Position numbers and translations under genes: made by a program | Notes under the pieces: generated by a model | Databases searched by the model: none | What the model saw: the letters and a program-made list of their open reading frames with translations, nothing else | Told to the model about the DNA's origin: nothing | DNA from: a virus | DNA length: 34,374 nt | Reading direction: 5' to 3' (one strand) | IMG/VR virus record: IMGVR_UViG_3300034073_000375 | Coordinates: 1-34,374 of that record | Part shown: piece by piece, positions 2,368 through 32,176 of the stretch | How positions within the stretch are numbered: the stretch's first letter is position 1 | Layout of the letters: each line of letters starts with the position of its first letter

Positions 2368-2681
2368 GAATCAGCAAAGGAAAATACGTAGACCAGTTTG
2401 CCATAGGCGTAACGTGGCTACGATACCCAAACGTAACGTGGTCTATCATCTTTGACTTCGGTCTATGGTACGTAGAGGTGTCAAGCGACTTCAATGATAA
2501 TGCTGATTGGAATCCATACGGATTAGCCAACACACTCGTGTGCGATAGGTGTGGCTCACCGAATGACGTGTACCATCATCTCAACGAGGAGTTGAAATCT
2601 GAATTGGTATGTGCCGAATGCATTCGTTATGAAGACTATATGAATAGCCTAAGAAATGAAGAACCAGAAGCTAATACTTGA
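2364..2681 (+). CDS. Hypothetical protein with C-terminal zinc finger, 105 aa
   Basis: The N-terminal part is aromatic and beta-rich (WLRYPNVTWSIIFDFGLWYVEV). The C-terminal half has C-x2-C pairs, CDRCG and CAEC, about 20 residues apart, as in a treble-clef or ribbon zinc site. The start overlaps the previous stop (ATGA), and the end overlaps the next small gene by 26 nt. No recognised family. Confidence 0.65.
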   Translation: MRISKGKYVDQFAIGVTWLRYPNVTWSIIFDFGLWYVEVSSDFNDNADWNPYGLANTLVCDRCGSPNDVYHHLNEELKSELVCAECIRYEDYMNSLRNEEPEANT

Positions 2682-2814
2682 GCAGTACAAGAAGGCTCAA
2701 TACAATCGCAACGTATGTTTGTACAGCCGTAGAGACACCGAAGCCAAGTATTGGGAAGGATACGTTAACGCACTTAGTTTAATTTTAGAATTAGAAGAAT
2801 GGACTCAATCATAG
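2656..2814 (+). CDS. Hypothetical protein, 52 aa
   Basis: A short frame, MKNQKLILEQYKKAQYNRN..., ending LILELEEWTQS, predicted helical. It overlaps the preceding gene by 26 nt and the MazG-like gene by 16 nt. Similar short KYWEGYVNAL-type proteins are known to me from Bacteroidota phages, without known function. Confidence rests on context and natural codon use rather than a family match. Confidence 0.6.
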   Translation: MKNQKLILEQYKKAQYNRNVCLYSRRDTEAKYWEGYVNALSLILELEEWTQS

Positions 2815-3101
2815 ATTTAGAAATGAAAGTAGTAGACTGGGCTATTGAGCGCGGTCTGCTCGAAAGAGAGAATGCAAACAAGCAGATGCTCAAAGTAATG
2901 GAAGAGGTTGGTGAACTTGCCTCAGCCATTGCCAAACAGAAAGAAGAAGAAACCATTGATGCTGTTGGTGACGTTCTCGTAACGCTCATCATTCTATGCG
3001 CTCAACTCGAACTCAACCCCTGGGATTGCTTAGAGACAGCATATAACGAAATCAAAGGACGCAAGGGTAAACTCGTCAACGGAGTGTTTATCAAAGAGTA
3101 A
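2799..3101 (+). CDS. MazG-like nucleotide pyrophosphohydrolase, 100 aa
   Basis: An all-helical single-domain protein with the MazG metal-binding signature: E35-E36-x-x-E39 (MEEVGEL) followed by D54 and D58 (IDAVGDVLV). The family hydrolyses (d)NTPs to monophosphate and pyrophosphate. In phages it may adjust nucleotide pools or (p)ppGpp signalling; the exact substrate here is unknown. About 100 aa is normal for the phage form. It is the last gene of the first early operon: a hairpin terminator begins at its stop codon. Confidence 0.85.
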   Translation: MDSIIDLEMKVVDWAIERGLLERENANKQMLKVMEEVGELASAIAKQKEEETIDAVGDVLVTLIILCAQLELNPWDCLETAYNEIKGRKGKLVNGVFIKE

Positions 3102-3132
3102 GAGGGAAGAACGCAAGGCGCTCCCTCTTTTT
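3101..3132 (+). terminator. Rho-independent terminator after the MazG-like gene
   Basis: Stem AGAGGGA (3101-3107) pairs with TCCCTCT (3122-3128) across a 14-nt loop and runs into a T tract (3128-3132). It closes the small-gene operon just before a new promoter. Confidence 0.8.
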
Positions 3133-3141
3133 ACAAAGTGT

Positions 3142-3180
3142 TTTGCAATTAACAACTTTATTAACTACATTTGTTTAAAA
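3142..3180 (+). promoter_or_regulatory. Bacteroidota-type promoter for the SSB-like gene
   Basis: TTTG at 3142-3145 (-33 element), a 20-nt spacer, then TACATTTG at 3166-3173, which fits the TAnnTTTG -7 consensus of Bacteroidota sigma factor. Transcription should start near 3180, about 10 nt before the ATG at 3190. It follows directly after a terminator. Confidence 0.75.
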
Positions 3181-3189
3181 TCTAATACA

Positions 3190-3507
3190 ATGGAAAATAA
3201 AACAGAGAAAATCTTTTGTGGCTACGTTAAGTCAGCAAAAGTATGGGATGACGCTTCGCGCTCTTTTGTAGAACCCAATGGCGGCGTATCTGTACGCTTC
3301 AGCCTTTCAGTTGCCGAGATGAATGACCTCCAGCGTTACGCTACCAAGGGAGAGAAGCCGTTCGTTTCGTTTGACCTTAAGCGCAGCTCTAAAGGTAACT
3401 ACTACTTGGAAGTGTCTGACCCCGCCACGTGGGGCTCTAAGCCACAACAGGCAACATCAGCTCCTCAAGGTCGTGTAGCCCCAAGCAATGACGACTTGCC
3501 CTTCTGA
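3190..3507 (+). CDS. SSB-like single-stranded DNA-binding protein, 105 aa
   Basis: Small beta-rich protein that ends in the acidic tip SNDDLPF. This tip is the hallmark of bacterial SSB tails, which recruit replication and repair partners. The body (about residues 1-80, e.g. FVSFDLKRSSKGNYYLEVSD) could be a compact OB fold, followed by a Gln/Ala/Pro-rich linker (about 81-98). It is shorter than cellular SSB (about 150-180 aa), and the OB fold is inferred, not shown. It has its own promoter, expected for a highly expressed replication protein, and lies upstream of primase-helicase and resolvase genes. Confidence 0.65.
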   Translation: MENKTEKIFCGYVKSAKVWDDASRSFVEPNGGVSVRFSLSVAEMNDLQRYATKGEKPFVSFDLKRSSKGNYYLEVSDPATWGSKPQQATSAPQGRVAPSNDDLPF

Positions 3508-3926: not shown

Positions 3927-4000
3927 GCCCTCGTCGCCTAATGGATATGGCACACGCCTTCTAAGCGTGACAAATCCCAGTTCGAGTCTGGGCGGGGGCG
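3927..4000 (+). tRNA. trnR(ucu): tRNA-Arg, anticodon UCU
   Basis: All arms fold by hand. Acceptor GCCCTCG (3927-3933) pairs with CGGGGGC (3993-3999) with one U-G wobble. The D arm has GCC/GGC and GG in its loop. The anticodon stem is CACGC/GCGTG with loop CTTCTAA, so anticodon TCT at 3960-3962. The T arm is CCCAG-TTCGAGT-CTGGG. Discriminator is G4000; CCA is not encoded. It would read AGA codons, which this phage uses often. A promoter lies just upstream. A second, different T arm plus acceptor strand lies beyond the adjoining HNH gene (4567-4591). Confidence 0.93.
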
Positions 4001-4014
4001 CAAATCATAAACAT

Positions 4015-4560
4015 ATGAAATATCCAAATCCATCTAGCTACGATAAGCATATAAAAACAAGAGTAGACAAGACTCTTGGTTATGTATACTTTCTAGATTC
4101 AGAGCATCCATTATCAAGCCGAGGAGGTAAGGTTTATTACCATAGACACGTAATGTCTGTCAAGATGGGGAAGTGGATTGATAAAAGCTATCAGGTGCAC
4201 CACATAGATGAAAATAGATGTAATAATGACCCAAGCAATCTAGAGGCACTTTCTCCAACTATGCACGGAAGGAAACATAGTAATTCAATTAAATCAGTAA
4301 AGAGATGTAAAAACTGCACAAAAAAGTTTATAACTGTGGATTATAATTTTTGCAGCGTATCCTGCGCTTCGGCATTTAGGCAGGTTGGAGGAGTTCACAA
4401 CAAAATAACCCCTGAAGAATTAAGCATTCTTGTTTGGGAAATTCCAGCAACTAAAATTGCCAAAAAGATAGGATGCTCTGACGTTATGGTTTCAAAACTT
4501 TGCAAGAGGTGGGGCATATCAAAACCTGGCAGAGGATACTGGATGAAAAATAAAAATTAA
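4015..4560 (+). CDS. HNH endonuclease with zinc finger and HTH, probable homing endonuclease, 181 aa
   Basis: The start is ATG 4015 (MKYPNPSSYD); a longer frame runs upstream through the tRNA and is rejected. An N-terminal region leads to the HNH core (HRHVMSV near 43, H62-H63-x-D65-x-N67, N71/N75, H84 and H88), then a Cys4 zinc finger (C98, C101, C113, C117) and a C-terminal helix-turn-helix (about 147-168, KIAKKIGCSDVMVSKLCKRW) probably used for target recognition. This is a standard phage mobile HNH layout. It starts 14 nt after the tRNA and is followed at once by a tRNA 3' fragment, so the insertion site was almost certainly a tRNA gene. AT-rich composition contrasts with its neighbours. 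Confidence 0.88.
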   Translation: MKYPNPSSYDKHIKTRVDKTLGYVYFLDSEHPLSSRGGKVYYHRHVMSVKMGKWIDKSYQVHHIDENRCNNDPSNLEALSPTMHGRKHSNSIKSVKRCKNCTKKFITVDYNFCSVSCASAFRQVGGVHNKITPEELSILVWEIPATKIAKKIGCSDVMVSKLCKRWGISKPGRGYWMKNKN

Positions 4561-29087: not shown

Positions 29088-29930
29088 TTAGAGTCTGTCT
29101 AACTGACCCTTCAATTCGTTGTACAATATAGAACCTTTTTCGCTAAGACAAAAACGTGACATCACTTCAATTGTATCTTGTCCTGCGGGGGTGGAAAGAA
29201 TAAGGCGACCACTGTCAAACCAGTACATTCCGTCCTCCTTGGCGAGAAGAATCTGGAAGTCAATAGCCTTCTTCACTGCAGCACGAGACTGAACTACTGG
29301 GTTGTCAAAGAGCTGAATGAACTTGCTAGGGTTGGCCTTAGCCTCCAAGAGCAGCTCACGCTTAATCTCAGCGTTCTTCTGGTTGGTGTCAATGCCCAAG
29401 TAAATAGCAACAGGCAAAAGCTCGTCTACGCTCTTGTTGCGAACCAATCCAATAGCGTCGTGGAGGATGAATTCTGTATCAACATCAACCTGTGCTTTGA
29501 GTTCAGTGTTCACCTCTTCAAAGAGACCTCCCCCGTTAGCACGATTGCCAGGATGTAAGTCCAAGAACTTCATAAGGTTCGGCTTCTCGGCGGGAACGTA
29601 AAGAATACCGTTTTCAAAGATTACGTGCTGGCGAACAGCAAGATTGCTCTGCTCGTCTGCAAATACCGATGCCTCATTCGGACAGTAGCGAATCTGTCGG
29701 TTAGTATTGGTCTGTGCATCGTAAATGATAGCCTCCGACTTAATCTGGAAGATGATACCCCCGCCGCTAGGGACGGTATAAATCTTAGGCTTGCGCTCAA
29801 CCTTTGGAGGAGCAACAGCTTTCGGCTTTGATACGGGGGCGGGGGCAACTGTTGCAACTTCTGCAACGGTTTCTGTCATATCCAATTCGAAGGATTCAAC
29901 AGCTGGTTGGTTTACACGAGGGCGTGCCAT
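29088..29930 (-). CDS. Hypothetical structural-region protein, 280 aa
   Basis: The N-terminal 50 residues are Val/Ala/Pro-rich and probably disordered (TETVAEVATVAPAPVSKPKA). A beta-rich domain follows (about 50-115), then helices with IYLGIDTNQKNAEIKRELLL and a C-terminal winged-helix-like end (FDSGRLILSTPAGQDTIEVM). Proteins placed between capsid and connector genes in Bacteroidota phages are usually small structural or assembly factors, but this one is unassigned. It has its own upstream promoter-like element and is flanked by terminators on both sides, so its expression is set separately from the capsid gene. Confidence 0.65.
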   Translation of the reverse strand: MARPRVNQPAVESFELDMTETVAEVATVAPAPVSKPKAVAPPKVERKPKIYTVPSGGGIIFQIKSEAIIYDAQTNTNRQIRYCPNEASVFADEQSNLAVRQHVIFENGILYVPAEKPNLMKFLDLHPGNRANGGGLFEEVNTELKAQVDVDTEFILHDAIGLVRNKSVDELLPVAIYLGIDTNQKNAEIKRELLLEAKANPSKFIQLFDNPVVQSRAAVKKAIDFQILLAKEDGMYWFDSGRLILSTPAGQDTIEVMSRFCLSEKGSILYNELKGQLDRL

Positions 29931-29986: not shown

Positions 29987-30012
29987 ATAAAAAAGGGGCC
30001 CGAAGGCCCCTT
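29987..30012 (-). terminator. Hairpin terminator with UUCG loop downstream of the GIY-YIG gene
   Basis: On the minus strand AAGGGGCC-TTCG-GGCCCCTT (29993-30000 with 30005-30012) is followed by a run of T (29989-29994, then TATTATAT). The C(UUCG)G loop is very stable. It lies about 20 nt beyond the displaced capsid 3' end and was probably the original capsid terminator. Confidence 0.85.
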
Positions 30013-30017
30013 CACAT

Positions 30018-30058
30018 TACGTAACTCGTTGATTACGAGCGTAGTAAAACGTGCTGAT
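30018..30058 (-). pseudogene. Displaced copy of the capsid gene 3' end
   Basis: Immediately beyond the GIY-YIG stop, the minus strand reads in frame as QHVLLRS-stop, the exact C-terminus of the major capsid protein. Three of the seven codons differ synonymously (TTA for TTG, CGC for AGA, TCG for AGC). The similarity continues past the stop (TAATCAAnnnGTTAC). A 13-nt exact repeat (30046-30058 and 30771-30783, AAAACGTGCTGAT on the plus strand) marks the match. Confidence 0.85.
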
Positions 30059-30060
30059 AC

Positions 30061-30657
30061 TCATTCACCTTTAAAGTAGTAAAATGATGGGTGTCTGTCC
30101 GAACGGCACCTTTCAGATATTATTTGTATTGACCTGTTATAGTAGCGTGCCGCGTCGCCTAATGATTCATATAGCACTCCATCGCATATAACCTTCTTCT
30201 TCCTTGCATTGGATATTTTCTTTCTCCATTCGTCACCCCTGTTCTTCATCGCCGATTTCCAAGCCTCTCTTTCCTTACTTTTTTCTCCAATCTTCTTTTT
30301 TCTTTCTTCTGTAAAAACAACTCCTGTAGATGATTCTCTCATTTTTTGTTTTGTTTCTTCGGTACACTTATAATTAACTCTTCCATCACCTCCGTCTGTC
30401 ATATTACATAGTGTGCCCAAATCCCTGTCGGCACGTCCAAATAATGAAATATAATGAACCTCTAGTGCCTTTGCTTCGCTATGGCTTAAGCCAGTATGGG
30501 CAAATTCAATTGTAAATCCACCGTGCTTGGCAACTATTCTTTTCCAGAACTCAGACCTATTAGATATTCTATAAGCTCTTCGCCCAACTCCAATCCCAAC
30601 ATAGAAAACAATATTGTCGTCAGCTCTTCTGTGAAAGTATATGTAGTGTCTATTCAT
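30061..30657 (-). CDS. GIY-YIG homing endonuclease, 198 aa
   Basis: N-terminal GIY-YIG domain: Y5-I-Y7 and Y19-V-G21 form the signature pair, R27/R30 follow on the helix, and E61/E66 region supplies the metal-binding acid. TDGGDG (87-92) is a common element of phage Seg-like enzymes. Repeated helical NUMOD3-like segments (about 100-150) and a C-terminal IENR1/NUMOD1-like HTH (about 155-190, GVLYESLGDAARYYNRSIQI) bind the target. AT-rich and Lys-rich, unlike the capsid gene. It sits behind the capsid terminator and in front of the displaced capsid 3' end, so the capsid gene's 3' end is the probable cut site. Confidence 0.88.
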   Translation of the reverse strand: MNRHYIYFHRRADDNIVFYVGIGVGRRAYRISNRSEFWKRIVAKHGGFTIEFAHTGLSHSEAKALEVHYISLFGRADRDLGTLCNMTDGGDGRVNYKCTEETKQKMRESSTGVVFTEERKKKIGEKSKEREAWKSAMKNRGDEWRKKISNARKKKVICDGVLYESLGDAARYYNRSIQIISERCRSDRHPSFYYFKGE

Positions 30658-30705
30658 ATGTTAAATATAAAATAAATCAGCTTGTTCTAGTTAATGTTAT
30701 GAAAA

Positions 30706-30729
30706 TAAAAAAAGGGGGCATTGCCCCCT
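30706..30729 (-). terminator. Rho-independent terminator of the major capsid gene
   Basis: On the minus strand GGGGGC-AAT-GCCCCC (30714-30719 with 30723-30728, plus one A-T pair) is followed by T7 (30707-30713). It isolates the capsid gene from the GIY-YIG gene and may have arrived with it. Confidence 0.85.
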
Positions 30730-30757
30730 CCTGTTAAAGCAAGTAACCTATTGATTA

Positions 30758-32176
30758 TTAGCTTCTTAGCAAAACGTGCTGATTGGCTGCTCTTGTTACG
30801 AGAGCACACTCAGAACGGTAGTTGAACTGCAGAGCGTCCGTGTTGGTGTTGGTAACTCCAAGGATAGAACCCGTCATCCAGTGCTCCATTTCACGGCTGT
30901 AGCCGTTGGTAGCCTTGTAGTTGAGTTCCAGTGCAGGAGCCTTGTCACCCGTCTTCGGGTCAGCAACGCGAGTCAACGGAATCATTACGCCTTGGAAAGC
31001 GCTGCCAGCCAACAACGTGGGGTCGTTGAGGAGCTTCCAGCTGTGCTTGTGGAAGGTGTAAGAACCGCGAACGAACGAAGAGAAGCCAAGCTTCACCATA
31101 TCGTCAGCATTAGCGAACTGTCCGAACTGAGTGGTAACACCAGCAGTGATGTTAGCAGCAGTAGACGTACCGTTAGCAATCATATCGTCGATGGCGAGGT
31201 CTTGCAGACGGTTCAGGTACATAGCGTACTCGGGCATAGCGCCTTGCTTGTCGAGGGCAGTGATGATACCATCAAGCTCGTCAAGGGTAGCGATAGCGGC
31301 AGTCGTCGTAGCACCAGAGTTAACTACGATACCACGGTCAGCGATAGCAGAGAAGTAACCTTCAGAGCCAGCGATAGAACCGAGAGCAGTCAAACCAGTG
31401 TTGCTAACAGACTGTCCGAGCAACATCATCATCTCACGCTTATCGAGGAAGCGCTGACGAGTGTCGTTTTCAGACTTGATGAACCAGCGGTAGTCGCCGT
31501 TACCCAAGTTAACCCAGCCGATGTTGGTAGCCTGCGAACCAGTAACCTTGTATACTTCTTTGAGAATCATATACGGGTTGGTGCGCTTAACAACGTTAGA
31601 CTCGAGGTAGCCAGAGTTCTGGTCGGTTCCTTGAGCGAACATATTACCGATAATCGGGTAGTTAGCAGCAGCAGCGGCAGCAGAAGCGCTCATACCAGCA
31701 GAGGTCAGAGAAACAGCAGTTGCAGCAGCAGTAGCAGTCTGAGAGTACTCACCAGCAGAAACAGCCGTGATGATGAAGCGGTCTACACCACCAACCAAAA
31801 TCACGTCGTTAACGCGGAGGTACTTCTGAGCAGCAGCCTTAGTGGCACCAGTGGCGCTGGTAGCAGCAGAGGCAAGATTGATTACAAAAGAGGTAGCGCC
31901 AGCAGCAACAGTAGCTGAAGGAGTACCTACTTGAAGCTGGTGCAAGCGAGTCTCCTCCCAGTACTGAACCTCGTCAGCAACACCATTAGCCTTCACAGCT
32001 CCCGTCATTTGCAGGAAGCCAGTGATGCCTTGGTTGCCGTAGGTCTTCACAAGAAGGTCACGGTTGTCAGGCTTGTTTACCTCGTTGATGAAGTCACCAA
32101 GAGATACATATTTGGTCGGGTCTAACCGACGGAAGCTGTTGGGCGAAAAGTCCAACGGAGTGTTAGTCGTTGACAT
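30758..32176 (-). CDS. Major capsid protein, 472 aa
   Basis: Size, position directly after a scaffold-like gene, strong codon bias (GCT-rich Ala, few rare codons) and a following strong terminator all indicate the major capsid protein. The N-terminus MSTTNTPLDFSPNSFRRLDP and GDFINEVNKPDNRDLL leads to an Ala/Ser/Thr-rich insertion (about 82-178) that may be a surface loop. The C-terminal part (YKATNGYSREMEHWMTGSIL) fits a HK97-like P/A-domain strand pattern. It ends QHVLLRS. The family within HK97-type capsids cannot be fixed by eye; N4-gp56-like and crAss-like capsids are candidates. Confidence 0.8.
   Translation of the reverse strand: MSTTNTPLDFSPNSFRRLDPTKYVSLGDFINEVNKPDNRDLLVKTYGNQGITGFLQMTGAVKANGVADEVQYWEETRLHQLQVGTPSATVAAGATSFVINLASAATSATGATKAAAQKYLRVNDVILVGGVDRFIITAVSAGEYSQTATAAATAVSLTSAGMSASAAAAAANYPIIGNMFAQGTDQNSGYLESNVVKRTNPYMILKEVYKVTGSQATNIGWVNLGNGDYRWFIKSENDTRQRFLDKREMMMLLGQSVSNTGLTALGSIAGSEGYFSAIADRGIVVNSGATTTAAIATLDELDGIITALDKQGAMPEYAMYLNRLQDLAIDDMIANGTSTAANITAGVTTQFGQFANADDMVKLGFSSFVRGSYTFHKHSWKLLNDPTLLAGSAFQGVMIPLTRVADPKTGDKAPALELNYKATNGYSREMEHWMTGSILGVTNTNTDALQFNYRSECALVTRAANQHVLLRS

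Follow-up and report, generated by a model that had tools for sequence, protein, structure and literature searches.

In Torulaspora and Lachancea yeasts, the WHO elements at FBA1 place an endonuclease gene 3' of a host-gene end that the element itself brings (PMC7282813). Upon insertion, the 3' end of the host gene is replaced and the old end is pushed downstream as a fragment, which provides a second homology arm. The mobile unit consists of the endonuclease together with the upstream replacement 3' end, and the new ends proved to be cleavage-resistant in experiments (PMC7282813). Related mobile ORFs have been described in fungal mitochondria, at atp6, atp9, cox2 and nad3 of Glomus and at atp6 of Allomyces (PMC3630166). 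In phages, the T4-like seg-type GIY-YIG endonucleases are free-standing, intron-less and located beside an essential gene, and segD adjoins capsid gene 23; seg genes spread by break repair with co-conversion of the flanks (PMC2988022). We found no phage report of the end-replacing arrangement in the open-access literature, to which the search was mostly confined.

We analysed a 34,374-nt stretch of viral DNA (hereafter the window, meaning this whole stretch), in which a GIY-YIG endonuclease gene has been inserted behind a capsid gene; the insertion is known from one metagenomic contig. As in the WHO elements, a new capsid 3' end stands immediately upstream of the endonuclease gene, and the old end is kept downstream of the endonuclease, both in the window and at an endolysin gene in contigs L089 and L090. 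However, the WHO enzyme is a yeast-nuclear intein-zinc-finger protein, whereas the window carries a phage GIY-YIG enzyme at a capsid gene. Since the latter is not intein-derived like WHO/HO, the locus would work in a WHO-like manner outside the WHO family. Furthermore, the coding piece replaced in the window measures at most a few dozen nucleotides, and the resistance established experimentally for WHO is here a prediction. The fungal mobile ORFs likewise have the 3' end of the gene duplicated around the endonuclease ORF, with the native end downstream, and at Glomus atp9 the enzyme is also of the GIY-YIG type, with the native end directly after the ORF; unlike the window, they are mitochondrial, their replaced ends are usually longer and their enzymes are mostly LAGLIDADG (PMC3630166). 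The window shares with the seg genes a free-standing, intron-less endonuclease beside an essential phage gene, but the passages of the T4 review consulted mention no gene end left behind one of the seg genes (PMC2988022). The features of the locus are as follows.

30758-32176, minus strand: capsid (virion structural) gene, 472 aa, intact; phrog_13704, head and packaging, E 9e-114
30767-30783, minus strand: left copy (ATCAGCACGTTTTGCTA) of a 17-nt direct repeat, its first 13 nt identical to the right copy; repeat spacing 725
30758-30781, minus strand: copy 1, the active capsid end, QHVLLRS-stop, with the newcomer codons AGA AGC TAA
30710-30732, minus strand: terminator 1, 3' of the active capsid end, stem-loop plus T run
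30061-30657, minus strand: GIY-YIG homing endonuclease gene, 198 aa, frame intact; phrog_314, E 1.9e-21
30042-30058, minus strand: right copy (ATCAGCACGTTTTACTA) of the 17-nt direct repeat, of the same repeat family as the left copy
30033-30056, minus strand: copy 2, the stranded native capsid end, QHVLLRS-stop, starting 4 nt past the endonuclease stop
29992-30013, minus strand: terminator 2, the native capsid terminator, GGGGCCTTCGGGCCCC, identical in L001, L002, L005 and L006
29931-29991, minus strand: native spacer ahead of the next gene, with a TAAATTTG box, kept in 5/5 closest endonuclease-free relatives
29088-29930, minus strand: next gene, phrog_34748, the downstream homology arm, which adjoins the capsid gene in endonuclease-free relatives
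L004 5013-5606 and L011 5541-6134: orthologous endonuclease genes in two relatives, ending inside native spacer DNA

The capsid gene has homologues at about 32% identity in Flavobacterium and Cellulophaga phages. Its active 3' end reads AAT CAG CAC GTT TTG CTA AGA AGC TAA (the upstream-type end being AGA AGC TAA TAATCAATAGG), and copy 2 reads CAG CAC GTT TTA CTA CGC TCG TAA. Three of the seven codons thus differ, all of them synonymously (TTG/TTA, AGA/CGC and AGC/TCG), and the two serine codons have no position in common. The copies agree at 16 of their first 17 nt (ATCAGCACGTTTTRCTA), the sequences after the two stop codons can still be aligned, and a terminator stands behind each copy. The local alignment of the two ends scored 35, whereas none of 5000 dinucleotide shuffles scored above 31; with the terminators left out, it scored 32 against a shuffled maximum of 25. 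Within the capsid gene of the window, the AGA codon occurs in the last 12 codons only. A sequence-only reading of the window had pointed out a synonymous QHVLLRS-stop pair flanking the GIY-YIG gene; both copies are indeed present, at positions within 2-3 nt of those it gave.

To compare the two ends with those of related phages, 80 capsid relatives were fetched, 77 of them with both flanks, and 75 of these 77 have neither the endonuclease nor a second copy of the capsid end. In the five closest endonuclease-free relatives (four distinct: L001, L002, L005/L006 and L008), the capsid gene ends with CGC TCA TAATCAATGAGTTA, and the TAA is followed by TCAATGAGTTA and GGGGCCTTCGGGCCCC, the latter replaced by GGGGGCTTCGGCCCCC in L008; next come a spacer that contains ATAAATTTG and the beginning of the following gene. 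Copy 2 agrees with these relatives in the codons CGC TC- and in the post-stop sequence from TAATCAAYGAGTTA onwards. Furthermore, when the capsid body of the window is joined to copy 2, the resulting empty site aligns to the closest relatives without a scar. All RS-ending endonuclease-free relatives, including the distant L070 and L071, use CGC TCA, and none uses AGA AGC. Since the endonuclease-free relatives carry the codons, terminator and spacer of copy 2, this genome comparison shows the downstream copy to be the native end and the upstream copy to be a newcomer, which came with the endonuclease in a precise insertion.

This is what the sequence-only reading had proposed, namely that the mobile gene brought a new end for the capsid gene and left the old end stranded. 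Neither of the patterns that it had named as contrary turned up: no capsid end with the upstream-copy codons was found in any endonuclease-free relative fetched, nor did any of them hold a second copy without an endonuclease, a bare duplication of the capsid end being absent among the 75 endonuclease-free relatives. As to the codons TTA, CTA, CGC and TCG and the downstream terminator, which it had expected in relatives, CGC TC(A/G) and the terminator are there, while TTA and CTA are not fixed and vary freely.

The DNA on both sides of the insert was then placed among the relatives. In the tree of the gene upstream of the capsid gene, the window groups with L008 in a starred clade (97/97), and in that of the next gene it does so weakly (80/78, not starred). 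In addition, among the close relatives aligned, only the window and L008 have the codons ACA AGA just before the replaced end. Both flanks are therefore assigned to one lineage, that of L008, which makes the insert a foreign piece; the foreign block would begin somewhere in the final dozen codons of the capsid gene and end with the stop of the endonuclease. In identity plots, the capsid DNA is nearest to L001 (91%) and the flanks are nearer to L008. In the capsid tree, the grouping of the window with L008 is weak (77/78), and the alternative is not rejected (p-AU 0.22). A co-conversion of the whole capsid gene, with a long tract and an L001-like body, was considered and is not claimed, as the capsid tree gives no confirmation of it. 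A search of the IMG/VR viral contigs with two degenerate DNA patterns found no donor phage with the upstream end.

The endonuclease itself consists of a GIY-YIG domain, NUMOD3-like repeats and an I-TevI-type DNA-binding C-terminus, with a PF20987 match and a weak NUMOD3 match; the C-terminus matches the I-TevI DNA-binding domain 1i3j (E 3.9e-5). The catalytic-type residues Y7, Y19-VG, R27, E66 and N85 are invariant across three orthologues. The gene is free-standing, lying outside an intron or intein and leaving the capsid frame intact with its own stop, and an Rfam search detected neither a group I intron nor any other Rfam family within the window. Its occurrence at a conserved site is sporadic: the window, L004 and L011 carry it, L180 carries part of it, and 75 relatives lack it. 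By its domains, residues and distribution, we assign the protein to the free-standing GIY-YIG homing endonucleases, with site-specific cutting of alleles that lack the endonuclease and super-Mendelian inheritance as predicted properties.

The orthologues of L004 and L011 share 61-63% identity with the window enzyme and occupy the same place, behind the terminator and without a relic, so that stranding of the old end is not obligatory. Their 3' ends match the spacer of the endonuclease-free L014 at 17/17 nt; because these genes end in native spacer DNA, the host spacer supplies their last codons and stop. The values for this pair (dN 0.12, dS 0.74) are consistent with a protein that is maintained. 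In L180, the capsid-linked endonuclease breaks off after 41 residues (around position 381) into unrelated reversed sequence, and this contig looks like a strain-mixture chimera.

Other parts of the window hold further mobile-type genes and repeats. A tRNA-Arg with the anticodon TCT, which reads AGA codons, lies at 3927-4001, directly before an HNH homing-type gene at 4015-4560. The latter is 100% identical to a gene in contig L182, and no end relic was found at it in the window. Several small early genes share the ending AACGA(G/C)AAATGA, an ND/EK-stop that overlaps the next ATG (1040-1051, 1448-1459, 2162-2173 and 2356-2367), with four sites observed against 0.32 expected. An exact 17-nt copy is found before and at the end of an endonuclease-VII-like gene (1562-2173), and L169 has the same TNEK endings. 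The shared ending could serve as a signal for coupling or as a site of recombination.

We consider it highly probable that the capsid locus arose by an end-replacing homing insertion, through break repair, into an endonuclease-free phage of the L008/L001 subgroup. The mobile piece would comprise the GIY-YIG gene together with the capsid 3' end and terminator of a donor allele, and the enzyme would make a double-strand break in the endonuclease-free capsid 3' end, with the cut expected in or beside CGCTCR-TAATCAAYGAG. On the left side, repair from the donor would proceed via capsid homology, so that donor codons come to stand at the gene end while the protein remains intact. On the right side, the recipient's own capsid end would be joined again just after the stop codon of the endonuclease, and the native end with its terminator and spacer would persist as a relic. 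Phage T4 introns provide an established example of one-sided, illegitimate break repair (PMC2988022). The new end is predicted to resist the enzyme. The relic together with all the DNA downstream of it would already serve as the right homology arm, and the capsid body as the left one; with both arms in place, the block of new end, terminator and endonuclease could home again into endonuclease-free relatives.

A second case was found at an endolysin gene. In L089 and L090, which are separate assemblies with virtually identical records, the endolysin gene (PG_binding_1, Glyco_hydro_19) ends with QEFQKFYKLLF and is followed by a GIY-YIG gene, and KHFNEFYNLLK-stop begins at the last base of the endonuclease stop codon. 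All nine distinct endonuclease-free endolysin relatives have the relic-type end RIKHF.E(F/Y)..LL. The nearest of them, L188, matches the relic at 11/11 aa and 32/36 nt, versus 5/11 aa for the active end. On the comparison with these relatives, the locus is a second, independent end replacement, at an unrelated gene. At this locus the new end alters the protein sequence, and silent recoding is hence not essential to the process. The sequence-only reading had spoken of a recoded replacement end; a designed change is unneeded, since the recoding is most simply explained by a diverged donor allele and the L089 end alters amino acids.

At 101 usable GIY-YIG loci, many of them redundant, we scanned for further relics by matching the C-terminal residues of the preceding gene's product to stop-anchored peptides encoded 3' of the endonuclease. 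L089 scored 26, above the 99% point (20) and below the 99.9% point (35) of cross-paired loci; because of the latter, its case is founded on the relatives and not on the score. The highest score of the scan, 37, was obtained for L109, in which the end of an RNA-ligase gene (2425), KPKYSKPFSSDESI, is resembled by the C-terminus KIEYEKPFKKDENN of the GIY-YIG protein (2495-3292). The relic-type end sequence to compare is KIEYEKPFKKDE. Possibly the enzyme carries a relic end as an in-frame fusion; this is an unproven candidate for a third case, for which a search found no RNA-ligase relatives near enough to decide. Repeat pairs around the endonuclease in L125 and L144 turned out to be ordinary, owing to two terminators and to tail-fibre paralogy, respectively. 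Among named phages with related endonucleases, 21 loci showed no end relic. GIY-YIG genes also lie directly 3' of the major head/capsid gene in the crAss-like phages cr56_1 and cr125_1 and in Acinetobacter phage SH-Ab 15599 (L214, L215 and L219), with no detectable end relic at these loci.

The capsid locus could also have been left by a one-off illegitimate repair, combining one-sided homology with end joining, in which case the altered capsid end would be a mere passenger without a role in immunity or homing. We regard this as rather unlikely. Such one-sided repair does have its precedent in the T4 introns (PMC2988022), and most of the scanned GIY-YIG loci, the capsid-linked L004/L011 included, carry no relic; however, the endolysin locus of L089/L090 repeats the layout, with the relic again flush with the stop codon, and the fungal systems show it as well (PMC3630166, PMC7282813). 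It is considerably less probable that the downstream arm was swapped, that is, that an endonuclease-bearing phage with the upstream end recombined behind its endonuclease and thereby imported a partial capsid end and the next genes. Against this stand the gene upstream of the capsid gene, which is also L008-like in a starred clade, and the ACA AGA codons beside the end, which are common to the window and L008 only, even though the capsid DNA is nearest to L001 (91%) and the next gene to L008, as a swap would predict.

A false joining of two strains during assembly would have a parallel in the metagenomic contig L180, which breaks inside the same endonuclease gene into unrelated sequence. We nevertheless judge it very improbable for the window: any sequence shared at the junction is too short to create a false overlap, the DNA downstream continues in its proper place without interruption, and two separate, virtually identical assemblies contain the second case. 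Least credible is that the capsid end was duplicated locally in tandem and the copies were later parted by insertion of the endonuclease: the first 13-17 nt of the copies are nearly identical, as a duplication would leave them, but it is the non-functional copy that keeps the family codons and post-stop sequence, the functional copy is unlike that of every relative, and no relative has a bare duplication. As for how far the preferred reading, an end-replacing homing insertion, extends beyond this locus, we tentatively suggest, with slightly more doubt than conviction, that phage GIY-YIG endonucleases recurrently bring along cleavage-proof 3' ends for essential genes (those for capsid, endolysin and perhaps RNA ligase), repeatedly overwriting host-gene ends.

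On the evidence of these sequences, the end-replacing homing arrangement, so far associated with yeast nuclear genes and fungal mitochondria, also occurs in bacteriophages, where it has appeared twice independently, at essential genes. The locus offers a natural record of a free-standing homing endonuclease colonising a new site while staying compatible with the host gene, and it provides a searchable signature, in which the last codons of a gene are repeated right behind the endonuclease stop. If the new ends are cleavage-resistant, this would account for elements that can live next to essential genes and yet spare their own genome from cleavage, as well as for gene ends that evolve out of step with the gene bodies.
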